From contig PCTW01000055.1 of assembly GCA_002786715.1 (NCBI GenBank), forward strand, positions 1-64,000: DNA of 64,000 bases, read 5' to 3'. This document shows positions 49,231-56,552 of the stretch, one piece after another (positions within the stretch are counted from its first letter, which is position 1; every line of letters begins with the position of its first letter). The stretch is from Bdellovibrio sp. CG22_combo_CG10-13_8_21_14_all_39_27. GTDB taxonomy: Bacteria; Bdellovibrionota; Bacteriovoracia; Bacteriovoracales; Bacteriovoracaceae. The notes under the pieces are model-generated. The model was not told where the DNA came from, searched no databases, and saw only the letters and a program-made list of their open reading frames with translations. A program made the translations under genes and the position numbers.

Positions 49231-51208
49231 TAAAATAAGCGTTAGTCTTTACGTCTTGCTCTTCAGCTTGAACGCTCAAGCTTACGAATGTTCGCTTGAT
49301 AAAGAAAACAAAGATGATGCTTATCAATCTTTCTTAAATTCATCACAAAGCATTTTAGCAGACCTTAAAAACGAGAATAATAAGTGTGCCCCTGAAGCTC
49401 AAGAAGTTGATCGGTTTGCCAATTCTATCAATTCCTACAAAGAGAGTATGGGACTCAATAATTGGACCATCTATTCTGATCTCAATTCTAATGATGTGGA
49501 TTACAAAATTACTTGTCATAATTATCAACAAGTCTTTTCAGCTCAGCATGATCTCTATGTGAAAAATAGAAGTTTAAATAGAGATACAGATGGACAAGAA
49601 GTGTTTGCCAGTAGGTGCGATGCCGAAGCTGATTATCAAACCTGTGCTAGTATTGAGTATCAAGAAAAAATAGAAGAGAAGAAGGTGCAATGCCAATCTA
49701 TTGTTTCTGAAGATCAATGGCGAGCTCGTAAAAATTCTCAAGTTAACTTTTTGAATCAAATGAATAATTTCATGAAGGATTCTTTAAACAAATTAAAAGA
49801 TCCTGTTTGCCAAAAATCTCACTCTAAAGAGTACATCGGAAATATGTTTAAAAATCTTTTAATGTTTACGGGAGAGGTTTTAACCATTGGCGCTGGTCCT
49901 ACTGGTGGGTTAGCTTATGCCGGAGCTACTGGCTTGATGGATAGCGTGATTTCGTTCTTAGGTGACAATACTGATTTTATGGATATGATTCAAAATGAGG
50001 AATCAACAAGAAGCCAGGCTTGTTTTTTTAAGAATCTTCAAAGAAGAGTTTTTGGCTGTTCTAATTATCAACAAGTAAAGCAACGGGAGCAATCTCTAAA
50101 TGACTTCAACTCGGCCGTCAGTTGCGCCAGGGAAACGAAACCTATTTTTGATAATGCTCAGGACTTTTCTAAGCTGCTAGGTTATATCAGTAAGATTGAA
50201 GATAAAGATGGAGAAGATCTATATTTCAGCTTACTCAATTCCTTTGACAAAAATAATTTAGGAGCTTCAACTCTTAAAGGAATTCAATCTTTACAGTCTT
50301 TGCCAAAAGATTCAGAAGTTTTAAATTCATTTTTTAAAGTTAACTCAGGTCCACGTGGGGATCGAATTAAAGCGAGAAAGGAATTAGAACTCTTTCAAAA
50401 TAAATTAAAAGATCTCAAACCGATTTTAAAGGCCCTTCAACCAGAAAATGCTGGAGAGTCGCCAGATAAATTAGTCAAAGAATTGAAAGAATATGATAAA
50501 AAATATGGAAGTCAATTCTTTGATGACCTCAGGCTCATCCACCAATTAAAGGCCAAGGCTGAAGGTAAAAGTTACTCTTCATTAGAAGCCTATGAAGCAA
50601 GCCAATCGATGATCGATCAATTTCAGAGGATGTCCTCTTCTATCGAATCTGGCAATTATCGAAGCATGGAATTAGTGTTCAATAGTTTTATGAAGTATTT
50701 TCCTGCCAATGTGATTACGCAAACGGAGAATTTATCTAAGAGCATGACAAATATTAAAGATTCAGTGGCAAGTTCTTCAAAAGATCGCATTGAGAAGTTT
50801 CAACGAGTCATTGAGCCATTATTAGAATTTTGTCATCAATTACCTGAAGTGGCCTATTTGAATTATTCTGCTAAAGAAGGAGTTTTTTCAAGTCACAATT
50901 TATCTGAACATCCAAATACAAGTTTCTTGGCGGCCTGCGCGCCATTTTATTGCGCCGACGGTTCAGGTTTAAAAGTTTATCAATCGGGATTTTCAGAATA
51001 TTATTTAAAAAGCTCGAATTCCAAGTTGAAAATTGCTGATCCTGCTTATCAAAAATCGGAATGTTCATCCGATGATTCTCAATGCAGAATCGAGCAATTC
51101 AAAAAGTATAGTTGCAATAAGGACGAAGCTTTATCTCCCGTTAAAAAGAGATTCAAAGAGGAGTACCTTAAGAAGGGAACTCTCTGTGGGCAAGCCATTA
51201 AAAATTAG
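49217..51208 (+). CDS. Large exported helical protein
   Basis: The ATG at 49217 opens into a signal peptide ending LNAQAYEC; an earlier in-frame start at 49130 would bury it in the previous gene. The 663-residue product is mostly charged helix with scattered cysteines, and one Gly-rich hydrophobic stretch (about residues 213-240, IGAGPTGGLAYAGATG) that could insert in a membrane. No known domain. The end overlaps the sulfide:quinone reductase gene by four bases. Confidence 0.65.
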   Translation: MKNFNKISVSLYVLLFSLNAQAYECSLDKENKDDAYQSFLNSSQSILADLKNENNKCAPEAQEVDRFANSINSYKESMGLNNWTIYSDLNSNDVDYKITCHNYQQVFSAQHDLYVKNRSLNRDTDGQEVFASRCDAEADYQTCASIEYQEKIEEKKVQCQSIVSEDQWRARKNSQVNFLNQMNNFMKDSLNKLKDPVCQKSHSKEYIGNMFKNLLMFTGEVLTIGAGPTGGLAYAGATGLMDSVISFLGDNTDFMDMIQNEESTRSQACFFKNLQRRVFGCSNYQQVKQREQSLNDFNSAVSCARETKPIFDNAQDFSKLLGYISKIEDKDGEDLYFSLLNSFDKNNLGASTLKGIQSLQSLPKDSEVLNSFFKVNSGPRGDRIKARKELELFQNKLKDLKPILKALQPENAGESPDKLVKELKEYDKKYGSQFFDDLRLIHQLKAKAEGKSYSSLEAYEASQSMIDQFQRMSSSIESGNYRSMELVFNSFMKYFPANVITQTENLSKSMTNIKDSVASSSKDRIEKFQRVIEPLLEFCHQLPEVAYLNYSAKEGVFSSHNLSEHPNTSFLAACAPFYCADGSGLKVYQSGFSEYYLKSSNSKLKIADPAYQKSECSSDDSQCRIEQFKKYSCNKDEALSPVKKRFKEEYLKKGTLCGQAIKN

Positions 51209-52416
51209 GCTCGCCCTTTCATCATAAAATCCCAATAGAGAACAGGTAACATTTTTGTTTTAAGCAACCACATGGAGTAGCGCTCTTTAGTCATGTCTAT
51301 CACGGGAAATGAGGGGAGAAGGATATCATTGTAACCAAACTCGGCGAGGATCACTTTTCCATATTCAGTAACAAGAGGACAAGATGAATAGCCATCGTAT
51401 TTTTTATTATTTTCAAGTGATCGTCCATTGAGGTGATCGATCAGGTTACGAACAAGGACTGGCGCTTGTTTTCTAACCGCTGCACCTGTTTTTGCGGTTG
51501 GGTATGCGGCGACATCTCCTATGGCAAAGACATTTGAAAATTCGGGAGATTGCATAGTATGAATATCAGCATTGAGCCAACCTTTGCTCGGACCTTCTTT
51601 GTGTGCAAGAGGTGAGTCTTGAACAAATTGAGGGGCTGACATTGGTGGCGTCACATGAAGCATGCTGTATTCGTAGGTGACTTGTTGTTGTTTGCCTTCA
51701 GAGTCGCTCACGCAATAAGTGGCCAGTTTATTCTTGGTATCGACCTCCACTAGATTATGATTAAAGCGGGTATGAATACCTTTTCGGACCACCACTTTGT
51801 TTAAAGCTTGTGCAAAAGAGGGGACACCAAAAATTCTTTGTCCAGCGCTTGTGAAAAAGATTTGAGCATCTTTACGACGGTTTGTTCTTTGAAGGTGAGC
51901 ATCAAATAGATACATGATTTTTTGAGGAGCACCTCCGCACTTGATAGGAGTATTGGGAAAAGTAAAAAGGGCCTGCCCTGATTTAAAGTTATGAAAGTTT
52001 TCCCATACTTTATCGACTGTTTGATAAGAGTAGATTGAGCAAACTCCTTCGTAAGGAAGGGTTGGATCTTCGAGACCTTTGATTTTTTCAAAATGGAGCT
52101 CTAATCCTGGACACACCACAAGGGCATCATAATGGAGTGCTCCTGATTTTTCTGTCTCCACTTGGTTTTGAAAGGGATCAATCTTAATCACCTTCTCAGC
52201 TAACCATTCAACGCCATTAGGAATGAGGTCTTTCATGTTGCGTTCAGTTGCTTCTTTGCGAGAAAGGCCAGCGCCAACCAATGTCCAAAAGGGTTGATAG
52301 TAATGCTTTTGAGCAGGATCTATGATGGTAATGCTTAATTTTTCGCCTGAATGTTTAAGTCTTGCGGCAACATCAATTCCTGCTGTTCCTGCACCAATAA
52401 TTAAAATCTTTTTCAT
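51205..52416 (-). CDS. sqr: Sulfide:quinone oxidoreductase, eukaryotic-type II
   Basis: A 403-residue FAD enzyme that oxidises sulfide to persulfide and passes electrons to quinone. It has GAGTAGIDVAARL (FAD), and the two redox cysteines in IKCGGAPQK (Cys160) and SSCPLVTEY (Cys346), as in human SQOR. NVFAIGDVAAYP binds FAD. AAGGACTTTAGC precedes the ATG, which overlaps the tauE stop (ATGA). It is encoded with an exporter and controlled by an FNR-like box. Confidence 0.9.
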   Translation of the reverse strand: MKKILIIGAGTAGIDVAARLKHSGEKLSITIIDPAQKHYYQPFWTLVGAGLSRKEATERNMKDLIPNGVEWLAEKVIKIDPFQNQVETEKSGALHYDALVVCPGLELHFEKIKGLEDPTLPYEGVCSIYSYQTVDKVWENFHNFKSGQALFTFPNTPIKCGGAPQKIMYLFDAHLQRTNRRKDAQIFFTSAGQRIFGVPSFAQALNKVVVRKGIHTRFNHNLVEVDTKNKLATYCVSDSEGKQQQVTYEYSMLHVTPPMSAPQFVQDSPLAHKEGPSKGWLNADIHTMQSPEFSNVFAIGDVAAYPTAKTGAAVRKQAPVLVRNLIDHLNGRSLENNKKYDGYSSCPLVTEYGKVILAEFGYNDILLPSFPVIDMTKERYSMWLLKTKMLPVLYWDFMMKGRA

Positions 52417-53210
52417 GCTAAAGTCCTTCCTATTTGAGTTGGTAAATAAGCAATTCCCATTTTCGCTCTTTCTTTATAGAGAATAAAGAGTCCCATGATG
52501 ATGAGAAAAACACCAAAGGCTTTTTTCAATTTATCCGCAGGTACAAACTTTACTAACCACGAACCGATAATAATGCCGATAGCGGTAAAGAGAATAAACA
52601 TTCCGATAAAATTCCAATCTAAGTGAACTTGATTCATGTAACCGAGATATCCCGAAAAGGAATTTGCGGCAATAATAACGAGCGAAGTTCCGACGGCCTG
52701 TTTCATAGGAACTCGTGCCATCAAATGGAGTGCGGGAACAATGAGAAAGCCGCCACCGACGCCAACCAATCCTGTCACAATACCAACAACCAAACCTAAT
52801 CCAGCTATTTTCAAGATAGGGAGATGAACTGTTTCCTCCATCTGTCCTTCGATGACTTTTTTCTTTTTCAACATGTAGTAGCTGGCCAGGAGCATGATGA
52901 TGGCAAAGAGAATAAGCTGAGTGGTACCCGATAAATATTTGGCAAAAAATCGAGCAGTAACAAAAGCACCAAACATGGCCACTGAACCAAAAATGGTTCC
53001 TGTTTTGATATTCAGATTTCCTGCCCGAAAGTGGCTAATACTTCCGATGAGACTCGTTGCTCCAACGACGACAAGTGAAGAAGCTACTGCGAGTTTGGCC
53101 TCCATGCCTATCACGTAAACTAAAATGGGCACTGTTAGAATGGAACCACCACCGCCCATGAGGCCAAGGCTTAGGCCAACTAATGTTGCGAGTAAGTATG
53201 CTGTGATCAT
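52413..53210 (-). CDS. TauE/SafE-family sulfite exporter
   Basis: A 265-residue protein with about eight spans and family marks VGLSLGLMGGGGSILTVPIL and LVGVGGGFLIVPAL (internal repeat). It likely removes sulfite or thiosulfate-type anions produced by persulfide oxidation. The start is ATG 53210 with AAAGGAGTGACA before it; an in-frame GTG at 53216 is unlikely. It heads the tauE-sqr operon. Confidence 0.85.
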   Translation of the reverse strand: MITAYLLATLVGLSLGLMGGGGSILTVPILVYVIGMEAKLAVASSLVVVGATSLIGSISHFRAGNLNIKTGTIFGSVAMFGAFVTARFFAKYLSGTTQLILFAIIMLLASYYMLKKKKVIEGQMEETVHLPILKIAGLGLVVGIVTGLVGVGGGFLIVPALHLMARVPMKQAVGTSLVIIAANSFSGYLGYMNQVHLDWNFIGMFILFTAIGIIIGSWLVKFVPADKLKKAFGVFLIIMGLFILYKERAKMGIAYLPTQIGRTLA

Positions 53211-53260
53211 TGTCACTCCTTTATCTGGAGTTATTGTGCCTGCGGATTCTATTTTGGAAT

Positions 53261-53274
53261 ATGATAGAGATCAA
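53261..53274 (-). promoter_or_regulatory. FNR-like box of tauE-sqr
   Basis: Read on the minus strand, TTGATCTCTATCAT matches the FNR pattern TTGAT-N4-ATCAA at nine of ten fixed positions. A CACAAT -10 (minus strand) lies exactly where a box centred at -41.5 requires it, giving a start near 53226 and a 16-base leader. Confidence 0.6.
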
Positions 53275-53281
53275 ACTCTGA

Positions 53282-53929
53282 TTAATCCGCAGAGTTTTCT
53301 TGGGCCATGGCCAGCATTGCATTTTCATCTAATATAAGGATATCGCGTCCCACTTTTTCAATAACTTTGCTGCGCTCAAGATCTCCAAGGACTCTCGAAA
53401 CAGTTTCAGTTTTGGCACCACAATATTCGCCAATTTCCCTTCGAGTCCAATGGTGAGCAGGATAGCGATTTTTCAAAAAAATGAGAGACTCTATAATGCG
53501 ACCTGAAACTCTCTTACTCATCGAGTCTTTAATTCTCAGCTCGGCCCTTCTTAGGTCTTTTGCCAGAAGATGGAGAAAGTGTCGCATGAGTTCGGGATCT
53601 TCAAAAACAACTTTCTTAGCTTCATCAATATCTAAAAAAAGTATTTTAGAGTTTTTTAAAGTTACAGCTGAGGCATGATAGGTGTCGTCTGCAAGCAATG
53701 ATCTGTGACCCATAAAAGTACAGGGTGAAAATATTCTCAGCAGTGTCTCAACACCAGCTTCTGAAAGGGTAATAAGACTGACCAAACCTTCTTGAATAAA
53801 ATAGAGTCCACGGGCCTTCTCACCTTCATTGTAGATAGTGGTTCCTTGGTTAAAGGATAATATTTTCCCTTCAATTCCTTTTGATTTGAGATATTGGGGA
53901 AAATCAAAGCGTTCGTAAAATTCAATCAT
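53282..53929 (-). CDS. Crp/Fnr-family regulator without iron-sulfur cluster
   Basis: A 215-residue protein: cyclic-nucleotide-like beta-roll (residues 10-110), dimer helix, and winged helix with recognition residues TETVSR (174-179), the Glu-Ser-Arg pattern of FNR-type readers of TTGAT. The N-terminal Cys cluster of FNR is absent; only Cys70 and Cys170 remain. It sits between two FNR-like boxes, and presumably controls the sulfur genes on both sides. Signal unknown; a thiol or persulfide via the two cysteines is speculation. No ribosome site visible. Confidence 0.88.
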   Translation of the reverse strand: MIEFYERFDFPQYLKSKGIEGKILSFNQGTTIYNEGEKARGLYFIQEGLVSLITLSEAGVETLLRIFSPCTFMGHRSLLADDTYHASAVTLKNSKILFLDIDEAKKVVFEDPELMRHFLHLLAKDLRRAELRIKDSMSKRVSGRIIESLIFLKNRYPAHHWTRREIGEYCGAKTETVSRVLGDLERSKVIEKVGRDILILDENAMLAMAQENSAD

Positions 53930-53984
53930 TGCGATACATTATGGCCTAAACTGATAAATATTAGCAATATAAGAGATATTAAAA

Positions 53985-53998
53985 TTGATTAAGATCAT
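53985..53998. promoter_or_regulatory. FNR-like box between regulator and persulfide dioxygenase
   Basis: TTGATTAAGATCAT matches nine of ten fixed positions. It lies 56 bases from the regulator ATG and 64 bases before the dioxygenase ATG. On the regulator side TAATAT lies at about the distance expected for a class II promoter (self-control); on the dioxygenase side the -10 is unclear. A six-base inverted repeat GGTTAC/GTAACC (54003-54026) is adjacent. Confidence 0.6.
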
Positions 53999-54061
53999 AA
54001 TAGGTTACGCTTGTTTTGGAGTAACCTCGTTGAGTAGATAGGAATATAGGGAGACTTTTAT

Positions 54062-54916
54062 ATGAAAATTCAGCACTTTTTTGATAACGATACTTTTACT
54101 TTGACTTATATTGTTTGGGATGAGCAATCAAGAGATGCCGTCATTATTGATCCTGTTTTGGATTATAATCCTAATTCAGGAAAATTTTCTTACAAAAGTG
54201 CCGATCTTCATCTCGAATTTATTAAAAAAAATGAACTCAATGTGCATTATATCCTTGAAACTCATGCTCATGCAGATCACTTGAGTAGTTCTGTGTACCT
54301 AAAAAAGAATCTTCCAAAGGCCAAGGTGGCGATTGGTGCACCGATTAAATTAGTTCAGGAAGTTTTCAAGGGTGTCTTTAACATGAAAGAGTTAAAGACC
54401 GACGGCTCTCAATTTGATCAACTTTTAAATGAAAATGAAGTGGTTCAAGCGGGTAGTCTCTCCTTTAAAGTTTTATATACTCCGGGGCATACTCCGGCAT
54501 GCGCTAGTTATCTTTTTGGAGATAACGTATTCACTGGTGATGCTTTGTTTATGCCAGATTACGGAACAGGTCGCTGTGACTTTCCAAAAGGGTGTGCCGA
54601 AGACCTTTATCATTCTGTAACCCAGAAGCTATATACTCTGCCAGATTCAACAAAATATTTTACTGGTCACGATTATTTGCCAAATGATAGAGAGCTCAAA
54701 TTTCAATCGACAATTGGGGAATCAAAGAAAAGTAATATCCGTCTGACAGGATCTACGAGCAAAGAGGACTTTGTAAAATTTCGTCGCGAACGTGACGCCA
54801 CTTTGGAAGCTCCTCGTTTGCTTCTCCCAAGTATCCAAGTCAATATCGCAGCTGGACATCTACCTGAAGCTGAAGACAATGGCATGAGATATCTCAAGCT
54901 GCCAATTAGAGAATAA
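54062..54916 (+). CDS. ETHE1/Blh-like persulfide dioxygenase (MBL fold)
   Basis: A 284-residue metallo-beta-lactamase-fold enzyme. THAHADH at 67-73, GHTP, TGDALFMPDYGTGRCDFP and GHDY give the metal and substrate site of the ETHE1/Blh group, which oxidises glutathione persulfide to sulfite. No rhodanese domain is fused. Known Blh genes lie with TauE exporters and regulators of the BigR type; here a Crp/Fnr protein replaces BigR. AGGGAGACTTTTAT is before the ATG. Confidence 0.85.
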   Translation: MKIQHFFDNDTFTLTYIVWDEQSRDAVIIDPVLDYNPNSGKFSYKSADLHLEFIKKNELNVHYILETHAHADHLSSSVYLKKNLPKAKVAIGAPIKLVQEVFKGVFNMKELKTDGSQFDQLLNENEVVQAGSLSFKVLYTPGHTPACASYLFGDNVFTGDALFMPDYGTGRCDFPKGCAEDLYHSVTQKLYTLPDSTKYFTGHDYLPNDRELKFQSTIGESKKSNIRLTGSTSKEDFVKFRRERDATLEAPRLLLPSIQVNIAAGHLPEAEDNGMRYLKLPIRE

Positions 54917-56079: not shown

Positions 56080-56319
56080 GTGAACACTAAAGAATTTCCC
56101 CATGAATTTTTTGTTGAGATTACTCAACAAGAATTTTATTTGGGTCGCATAACAGTTAACAAAATGCCCAAGGGGCACACTTGTGAAATTTCGATCGTGC
56201 AGCGCGAATCAAAAAAAATTATTAAACACGTTGACACTCTTTATGAGATCGAAGAGTATGCTGAGGCCGTGGACAGAGCGGTTCAAAAGCTTTCTCATTT
56301 TCTTAAAAATCAACTTTAA
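56080..56319 (+). CDS. 79-residue soluble protein
   Basis: Start GTG 56080 with a weak AGAAGAATA upstream. The product (beta strand then helix, EIEEYAEAVDRAVQKL) looks like a small compact alpha/beta domain. No family recognised. It stands alone between the YceI gene and the sigma-54 site. Confidence 0.55.
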   Translation: MNTKEFPHEFFVEITQQEFYLGRITVNKMPKGHTCEISIVQRESKKIIKHVDTLYEIEEYAEAVDRAVQKLSHFLKNQL

Positions 56320-56323
56320 GTCA

Positions 56324-56370
56324 GTCATCTTTTTGACTAGGTGATTCGTCGCGTTCGTCATTTTTATGAC
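56324..56370. promoter_or_regulatory. Dyads upstream of the sigma-54 RNA promoter
   Basis: GTCA-N6-TGAC (56324-56337) and GTCAT-TTTT-ATGAC (56357-56370), plus a third CGTCAT at 56372, share GTCA half sites. Their centres are about 132 and 99 bases before the predicted start, the usual range for enhancer-binding proteins. The activator is unknown. Confidence 0.5.
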
Positions 56371-56434
56371 TCGTCATACTTTTTCTAATTCTAATATTTC
56401 AACAAGTTAAGCTGTTTTCTCCGTGATCAAAAGT

Positions 56435-56451
56435 TGGCACGAACCTTGCTC
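56435..56451 (+). promoter_or_regulatory. Perfect sigma-54 promoter
   Basis: TTGGCACGAACCTTGCT matches the -24/-12 consensus at every fixed position, with GG and GC ten bases apart. The start would be near 56462. Confidence 0.85.
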
Positions 56452-56461
56452 TATGTATTAG

Positions 56462-56552
56462 TGTGTGTGTAGGAGCAAGAAGAAAGGATTTTTTCAAACT
56501 CCGTCAAATGTCTCTCGATAAAAAAAGGCCCACTGTTTCAGTGGGCTTTTTT
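56462..56552 (+). ncRNA. Candidate sigma-54-dependent small RNA, about 90 nt
   Basis: The stretch from the predicted start to the terminator is 91 bases. No ORF with a start at a plausible ribosome-site distance lies in it; the only ATG frame (56509) reads through the terminator. The 5' half has an open purine-rich segment (AGGAGCAAGAAGAAAGGA, 56472-56489) that could pair with ribosome sites' complements or bind a CsrA-like protein. The 3' half is an intrinsic terminator. The layout of promoter, short non-coding body and terminator is that of a small RNA. No homology was tested. Confidence 0.6.
56521..56552. terminator. Bidirectional intrinsic terminator
   Basis: GCCCACTG-TTT-CAGTGGGC (56528-56546) with six A before and six T after. 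It ends the small RNA on the plus strand and the ureohydrolase gene on the minus strand. Confidence 0.9.

Follow-up and report, generated by a model that had tools for sequence, protein, structure and literature searches.

Sigma-54 promoters served by an enhancer-binding protein that is dedicated to a small RNA (sRNA) have been described for GlmY, with QseF/GlrR, and for Qrr, with LuxO (PMC7073468, PMC10162802). In Myxococcus xanthus, a life-cycle transition is gated by the sRNA Pxr, which depends on PxrR, a response regulator of the sigma-54 type (PMC10217877). GcvB directs a GU-rich single-stranded seed against the AC-rich leaders of many mRNAs of one pathway, silencing the ACA motifs that enhance translation from a position upstream of the SD (PMC3879156), and EcpR1 of Sinorhizobium meliloti is an Hfq-independent trans-acting sRNA that represses dnaA and gcrA (PMC4414408). 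Attack-phase sRNAs without homologs elsewhere have been reported from Bdellovibrio (PMC3627812), and our literature search found no described sRNA for the Bacteriovorax class.

The locus described here, in a genome of 4.08 Mb from the class that has Bacteriovorax and its relatives as named members, resembles each of these systems in part. The preliminary description of this DNA had named GlmY and Qrr as the closest comparison, which holds for the control logic, a sigma-54 promoter with a probably dedicated enhancer-binding protein, but not for the remainder: GlmY is a protein decoy and Qrr acts in quorum sensing, and neither is homologous to the sRNA found here. With GcvB it shares the type of seed and of leader, whereas the structure and sequence of GcvB are different and its regulon is amino-acid transport; moreover, GcvB is Hfq-dependent in enterics, and a search of six genomes from the Bacteriovorax class found no Hfq. 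Pxr is alike in being under a sigma-54-type regulator, but no relation in sequence or structure was detected, the targets differ, and its activator gene is adjacent, whereas none lies within the flanks we examined. EcpR1 is alike in its Hfq independence and in that its predicted targets are cell-cycle genes, but it is an unrelated RNA of another phylum, and the sRNA here would target genes for dNTP synthesis, partition and repair. Searching Rfam 15, including GlmY/GlmZ, Qrr, GcvB and Csr/Rsm, gave no match at the gathering score and, at a permissive threshold, weak matches only, mostly driven by the terminator; as far as Rfam can tell, there is no sequence relation to GlmY, Qrr, Pxr or EcpR1. 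Judged from sequence, this is a new sRNA family that combines known principles, and its predicted regulon is unusual.

Within the window, that is, the whole stretch of 64,000 nt that was analysed, TGGCACGAACCTTGCT at 56435-56450 on the forward strand is the sole zero-mismatch match to a sigma-54 -24/-12 promoter, which bears out the perfect site claimed in the preliminary description. Its spacing is correct and it is placed for a start at the 5' end of the RNA; the predicted +1 is 56461, 12 nt past the C of the -12 GC and the first base of GUGUGUGUGUAGGAG. With the start taken from this promoter geometry, the predicted sRNA gene is about 92 nt long (56461-56552, forward strand) and ends in an intrinsic terminator at 56522-56552. 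The terminator had been called bidirectional, and it was indeed detected on both strands, the minus-strand form being suited to the convergent arginase-family gene (PF00491; 56564-57490, minus strand). This gene is a conserved downstream neighbour, found at 58 of the 83 loci compared, among which the neighbours of the sRNA gene vary. Relatives keep the promoter as well, with GG-N10-GC upstream of 81 of 83 copies, and a terminator is found in all aligned copies. The loss of the -24/-12 site in relatives, which the preliminary description had named as a ground for refutation, is thus not what is seen. An ORF of 79 aa without a Pfam match (56080-56319, forward strand) lies directly upstream of the enhancers, and its relatives, one cluster of eight among them, occupy the same place at other loci. 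Further upstream in the window, at 51205-54916, is an apparent sulfide-oxidation cluster, judged from translations, with an SQR-like protein, a TauE-like permease, a Crp-type regulator and a persulfide-dioxygenase-like metallohydrolase.

Two GTCA-N6-TGAC dyads, GTCATCTTTTTGAC at 56324-56337 and, 33 bp after it, GTCATTTTTATGAC at 56357-56370, precede the promoter, and both their spacing and their register are conserved. The preliminary description had proposed these dyads as enhancers, and the comparison with relatives agrees: upstream of 24 copies of the sRNA there are 25 perfect N6 sites against 0.02 expected, no GTCA/TGAC pairs at spacings N3-N5, N7-N9 or N11, and six N10 readings, which are GTCAGTCA extensions of N6 sites. 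Perfect sites occur at 59 of 83 copies, and at least two sites (one mismatch allowed) at 52. The distances of 90 perfect sites to the promoter cluster at a period of 10.9 bp, a clustering reached in 0 of 2000 simulations, which puts the dyads on one face of the helix, as an activator bound there would require. A broad GTCA-N6-TGAC regulon was considered and rejected, the own genome having 41 single sites against 31 in the reversed control, with no clear excess; the paired dyad, in turn, is present there at the sRNA locus only. Across 129 whole genomes of the class, the double dyad occurs in 40, almost always once per genome and at the sRNA gene, compared with 0 for the reversed pattern. Given that it is nearly exclusive to this gene, the activator looks devoted to the sRNA.

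An activator gene next to the sRNA was looked for, and no GAFTGA-bearing ORF was found in the flanks of the 83 loci. Nine genomes were compared, and all nine share two full activators with a Fis-type HTH, an NtrC-type response regulator (L169) and an activator with an unassigned N-terminus (L170). A choice by presence and absence failed: both occur alike in sRNA members and in two non-members, and therefore neither is singled out and both remain candidates. The sigma-54 activator family also has a conserved GAF-domain member (L176, L179, L193, L201, L208), in most of whose orthologs GAFTGA was not found; L179 has kept it.

A DNA search of 39 genomes found homologous sequence, matching from promoter to terminator, in 19, the own genome among them, which together with the 25 dyad sites against 0.02 expected argues that the arrangement is not due to chance. 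A covariance model of the RNA core was built without promoter and terminator; since it contained neither the promoter nor the dyads, these serve as independent tests of its matches. In this covariation search over relatives, a kind of check that the preliminary description had suggested, the model finds one copy in the own genome and has matches in 96 of the 129 class genomes, spread over 33 of 48 genera (61 of 73 when good genomes alone are counted), almost always as a single copy, and a search of about 240 genomes from the rest of the phylum gave no match. The cultured relative Bacteriovorax sp. BSW11_IV is among the carriers (L023), with its copy at about 5842-5932 of contig NZ_AUNE01000003.1. 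One genus, g50 (L154-L157), has a diverged version with double GTCA-N6-TGAC dyads and a sigma-54 promoter; its RNA of 91-95 nt has two GGA motifs and no GU repeat.

In the consensus structure, GUGUGUGUGU at the 5' end is unpaired and is followed by a hairpin, a AAAUGUCUCUC linker that is likewise unpaired, and the terminator. In the own genome, the fold and the alignment place the near-invariant 5' segment, hereafter the GU seed, at 56461-56470, the hairpin with its GGAG/CUCC base and GAAGAAA/UUUUUUC upper stem at 56472-56502, and the linker, AAAUGUCUCUCG, at 56506-56517, all on the forward strand. Compensatory changes are seen in 8 of the 11 hairpin pairs and 95% of cells are paired, values equalled in 0 of 500 shuffles, although the alignment was fitted to the model and hence leans towards it; sliding the partner strand destroys the signal. 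While the stem covaries, its apical GGA loop (56486-56488) is nearly invariant. One claim of the preliminary description has to be given up here: the purine-rich segment AGGAGCAAGAAG, described as exposed, lies inside the stem according to both the fold and the covarying consensus, where CUCC is the partner of its GGAG and the U run that of its GAAG. What is conserved and exposed is instead the GU repeat at the 5' end, together with the AAAUGUCUCUC linker. Its general reading, a sigma-54-dependent sRNA with enhancer dyads, gains comparative support from the promoter, the dyad register, the compensatory pairs and the terminators; the GU-repeat seed, the predicted set of targets and the confinement to one class are additions to it.

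The complement of the GU seed, ACACACACA, has only about 12 sites per genome, so few that every site could be inspected. In the own genome, leaders carrying such a site include those of tdk, thyA, nrdJ, scpB, one DksA-like and one orphan gene; others lie at the recJ start and early in the lexA frame. Inside the lexA frame (L245), near codon 16, CTCCTACACACACAC is a perfect 15-nt complement to nt 1-15 of the sRNA. Five further sRNA-bearing genera were inspected independently, with representative gene names checked, and the same genes recur: ACACACACA marks thyA, tdk and the DksA-like gene in three genera each, the orphan family in four, and smc, parB and recJ in two each; at nrdB, it lies within 80 nt in two genera and further upstream in a third. 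Of the orphan family, of about 115 aa (YRVWYLE..., GKSNWRAF; L260, L234, L275, L307), two members were scanned, and neither matched Pfam. By a hand tally over the six sRNA genomes, 33 of 61 sites are in sense and start-proximal (within about 80 nt of the start or in the first 20 codons), as opposed to 1-2 in antisense, and three genomes without the GU-type RNA have 9 sites and no such pattern. A conserved, predicted unpaired seed is thus accompanied by a conserved complement in the leaders of its putative targets, as is expected of a base-pairing sRNA.

The thyA leader allows this complementarity to be compared between genomes with and without the sRNA. We located thyA across the class and read 70 leaders, with two genomes of uncertain sRNA status set aside. 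Of the 49 genomes with the sRNA, 26 have an AC repeat of at least 7 nt in the 90 nt preceding the start, against 0 of the 19 that lack the sRNA (Fisher p=1.5e-5); the 23 member leaders that do not have it count against the reading proposed below. Because the genomes are related, the count by genus is safer, and here the repeat is found in 13 of 20 genera with the sRNA and 0 of 14 without (p=1.6e-4). None of the thyA leaders read has a GT repeat in sense, and the AC repeat was seen in 0 of 505 leaders of other genes in sRNA genomes. The linker, for its part, is complementary to GGGAGACAUU-like ribosome-binding regions, as thyA leaders such as GGGAGACAUAAAUG illustrate. Against the 45 nt before thyA it reaches a mean of -7.9 kcal/mol in members and -6.1 in non-members, and on member leaders the real linker beats 60 of 60 shuffled ones (shuffled mean -4.7).

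Taken together, we consider it probable that the gene encodes an Hfq-independent, enhancer-controlled, trans-acting base-pairing sRNA that represses a regulon of replication, dNTP and chromosome genes. In the mechanism that we propose, two dimers of a sigma-54 enhancer-binding protein would bind the GTCA-N6-TGAC dyads and activate the -24/-12 promoter, yielding an RNA that exposes the 5' GUGUGUGUGU seed and the 3' AAAUGUCUCUC linker, one on each side of the conserved hairpin. The GU seed would pair with AC repeats some 15-60 nt upstream of start codons, the stretch GUGUGUGU being the part predicted to pair with the thyA, tdk and nrdB leaders, and the linker could pair with the ribosome-binding region of the target mRNAs. 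Since the order of the two sites is identical in sRNA and mRNA, one continuous duplex with both is impossible; the seeds may rather take turns, engage by way of two molecules or form kissing contacts. As the GU seed would sit on ACA motifs and the linker on the SD, the most likely effect is repression, with translation presumably lowered by masking of an ACA-type enhancer and of the SD itself. The predicted targets serve dNTP synthesis (thyA, tdk, nrdB or nrdJ) and chromosome partition and condensation (parB, smc, scpB), and further include the repair genes recJ and lexA, the DksA-like protein and the orphan family. They would be turned down jointly while the activator is on, plausibly in a non-replicating attack or starved state.

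Several other readings of these data have to be weighed. The conserved stretch would be no independent sRNA if it were a leader, an untranslated tail or a small peptide gene, and the terminator does also serve the convergent arginase-family gene. We consider this scarcely credible, as the stretch has its own promoter and enhancers, its terminator precedes any co-directional gene, and its neighbours are not constant. For a peptide, the frame GTG TGT GTG TAG ends immediately and conservation tracks RNA pairing; no conserved frame was found, in agreement with the preliminary description, which saw no convincing ORF between promoter and terminator. AC-rich leaders can enhance translation alone (PMC3879156), so that the AC repeats could be a DNA or translation element with which the GU repeat coincides by accident. 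This is very unlikely, given that the repeats are strongly strand-biased, are tied to the presence of the sRNA at thyA and are absent from the other leaders; in g50, whose RNA has no GU repeat, the leader AC sites are missing too. Pairing might also act in the opposite direction, opening or stabilising the leaders of replication genes at the onset of growth. Sites as far as about 60-80 nt ahead of the start codon would suit activation as well. We nevertheless regard activation as unlikely, because the linker complements the SD region itself and because ACA motifs enhance translation from upstream of the SD, so that hiding them leads to repression (PMC3879156).

The reading that comes nearest to competing concerns CsrA. 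With PF17209, Hfq was found in none of six well-assembled genomes of the class (G000, G002, G007, G010, G014, G125), in which the controls were found, and CsrA is present in 119 of 129 class genomes; the GGA loop, nearly invariant on its covarying stem, may therefore be a contact for CsrA, which rather than Hfq could be the protein partner. The RNA might then titrate CsrA or use it as a pairing chaperone, the latter having a precedent in B. subtilis, where CsrA promotes SR1-ahrC pairing (PMC8501984). As an account of the whole RNA this is possible but doubtful: a single clear hairpin GGA per RNA would make a poor sponge, genomes without the sRNA have CsrA just as often, the lowest-energy fold of the g50 RNA does not present its two GGA motifs in two loops, and the GU seed and the target leaders would be left unexplained. 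A CsrB/RsmY-type sponge was demoted as the main function, there being one conserved GGA loop per RNA and no clear fold in g50.

With base-pairing repression as the preferred reading, the complement of GUGUGUGUGU before the starts of genes that build DNA and handle the chromosome suggests that the sRNA is probably a dedicated control switch of DNA replication in this group of mostly predatory bacteria. Predators of this sort switch between an attack form, which does not replicate, and a growth form, which does, and from this life cycle and the predicted regulon we infer that DNA synthesis would be held off in the non-replicating state. More tentatively, with the balance slightly against so full a claim, the sRNA may be a class-wide Hfq-independent riboregulator that, through a devoted activator, takes dNTP synthesis, partition and repair down together and sets the replication-off state of Bacteriovorax-type predators. 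It would bear on how predators hold off and release replication: the complement of one conserved RNA marks the mRNAs of thyA, tdk, ribonucleotide reductase, parB, smc and recJ across many genera. We know of no earlier sRNA with a whole DNA-replication supply regulon, and if the proposal is true this would be the first, connecting DNA synthesis in a concrete way to a sigma-54 signal, in a lineage in which the search for Hfq found none.
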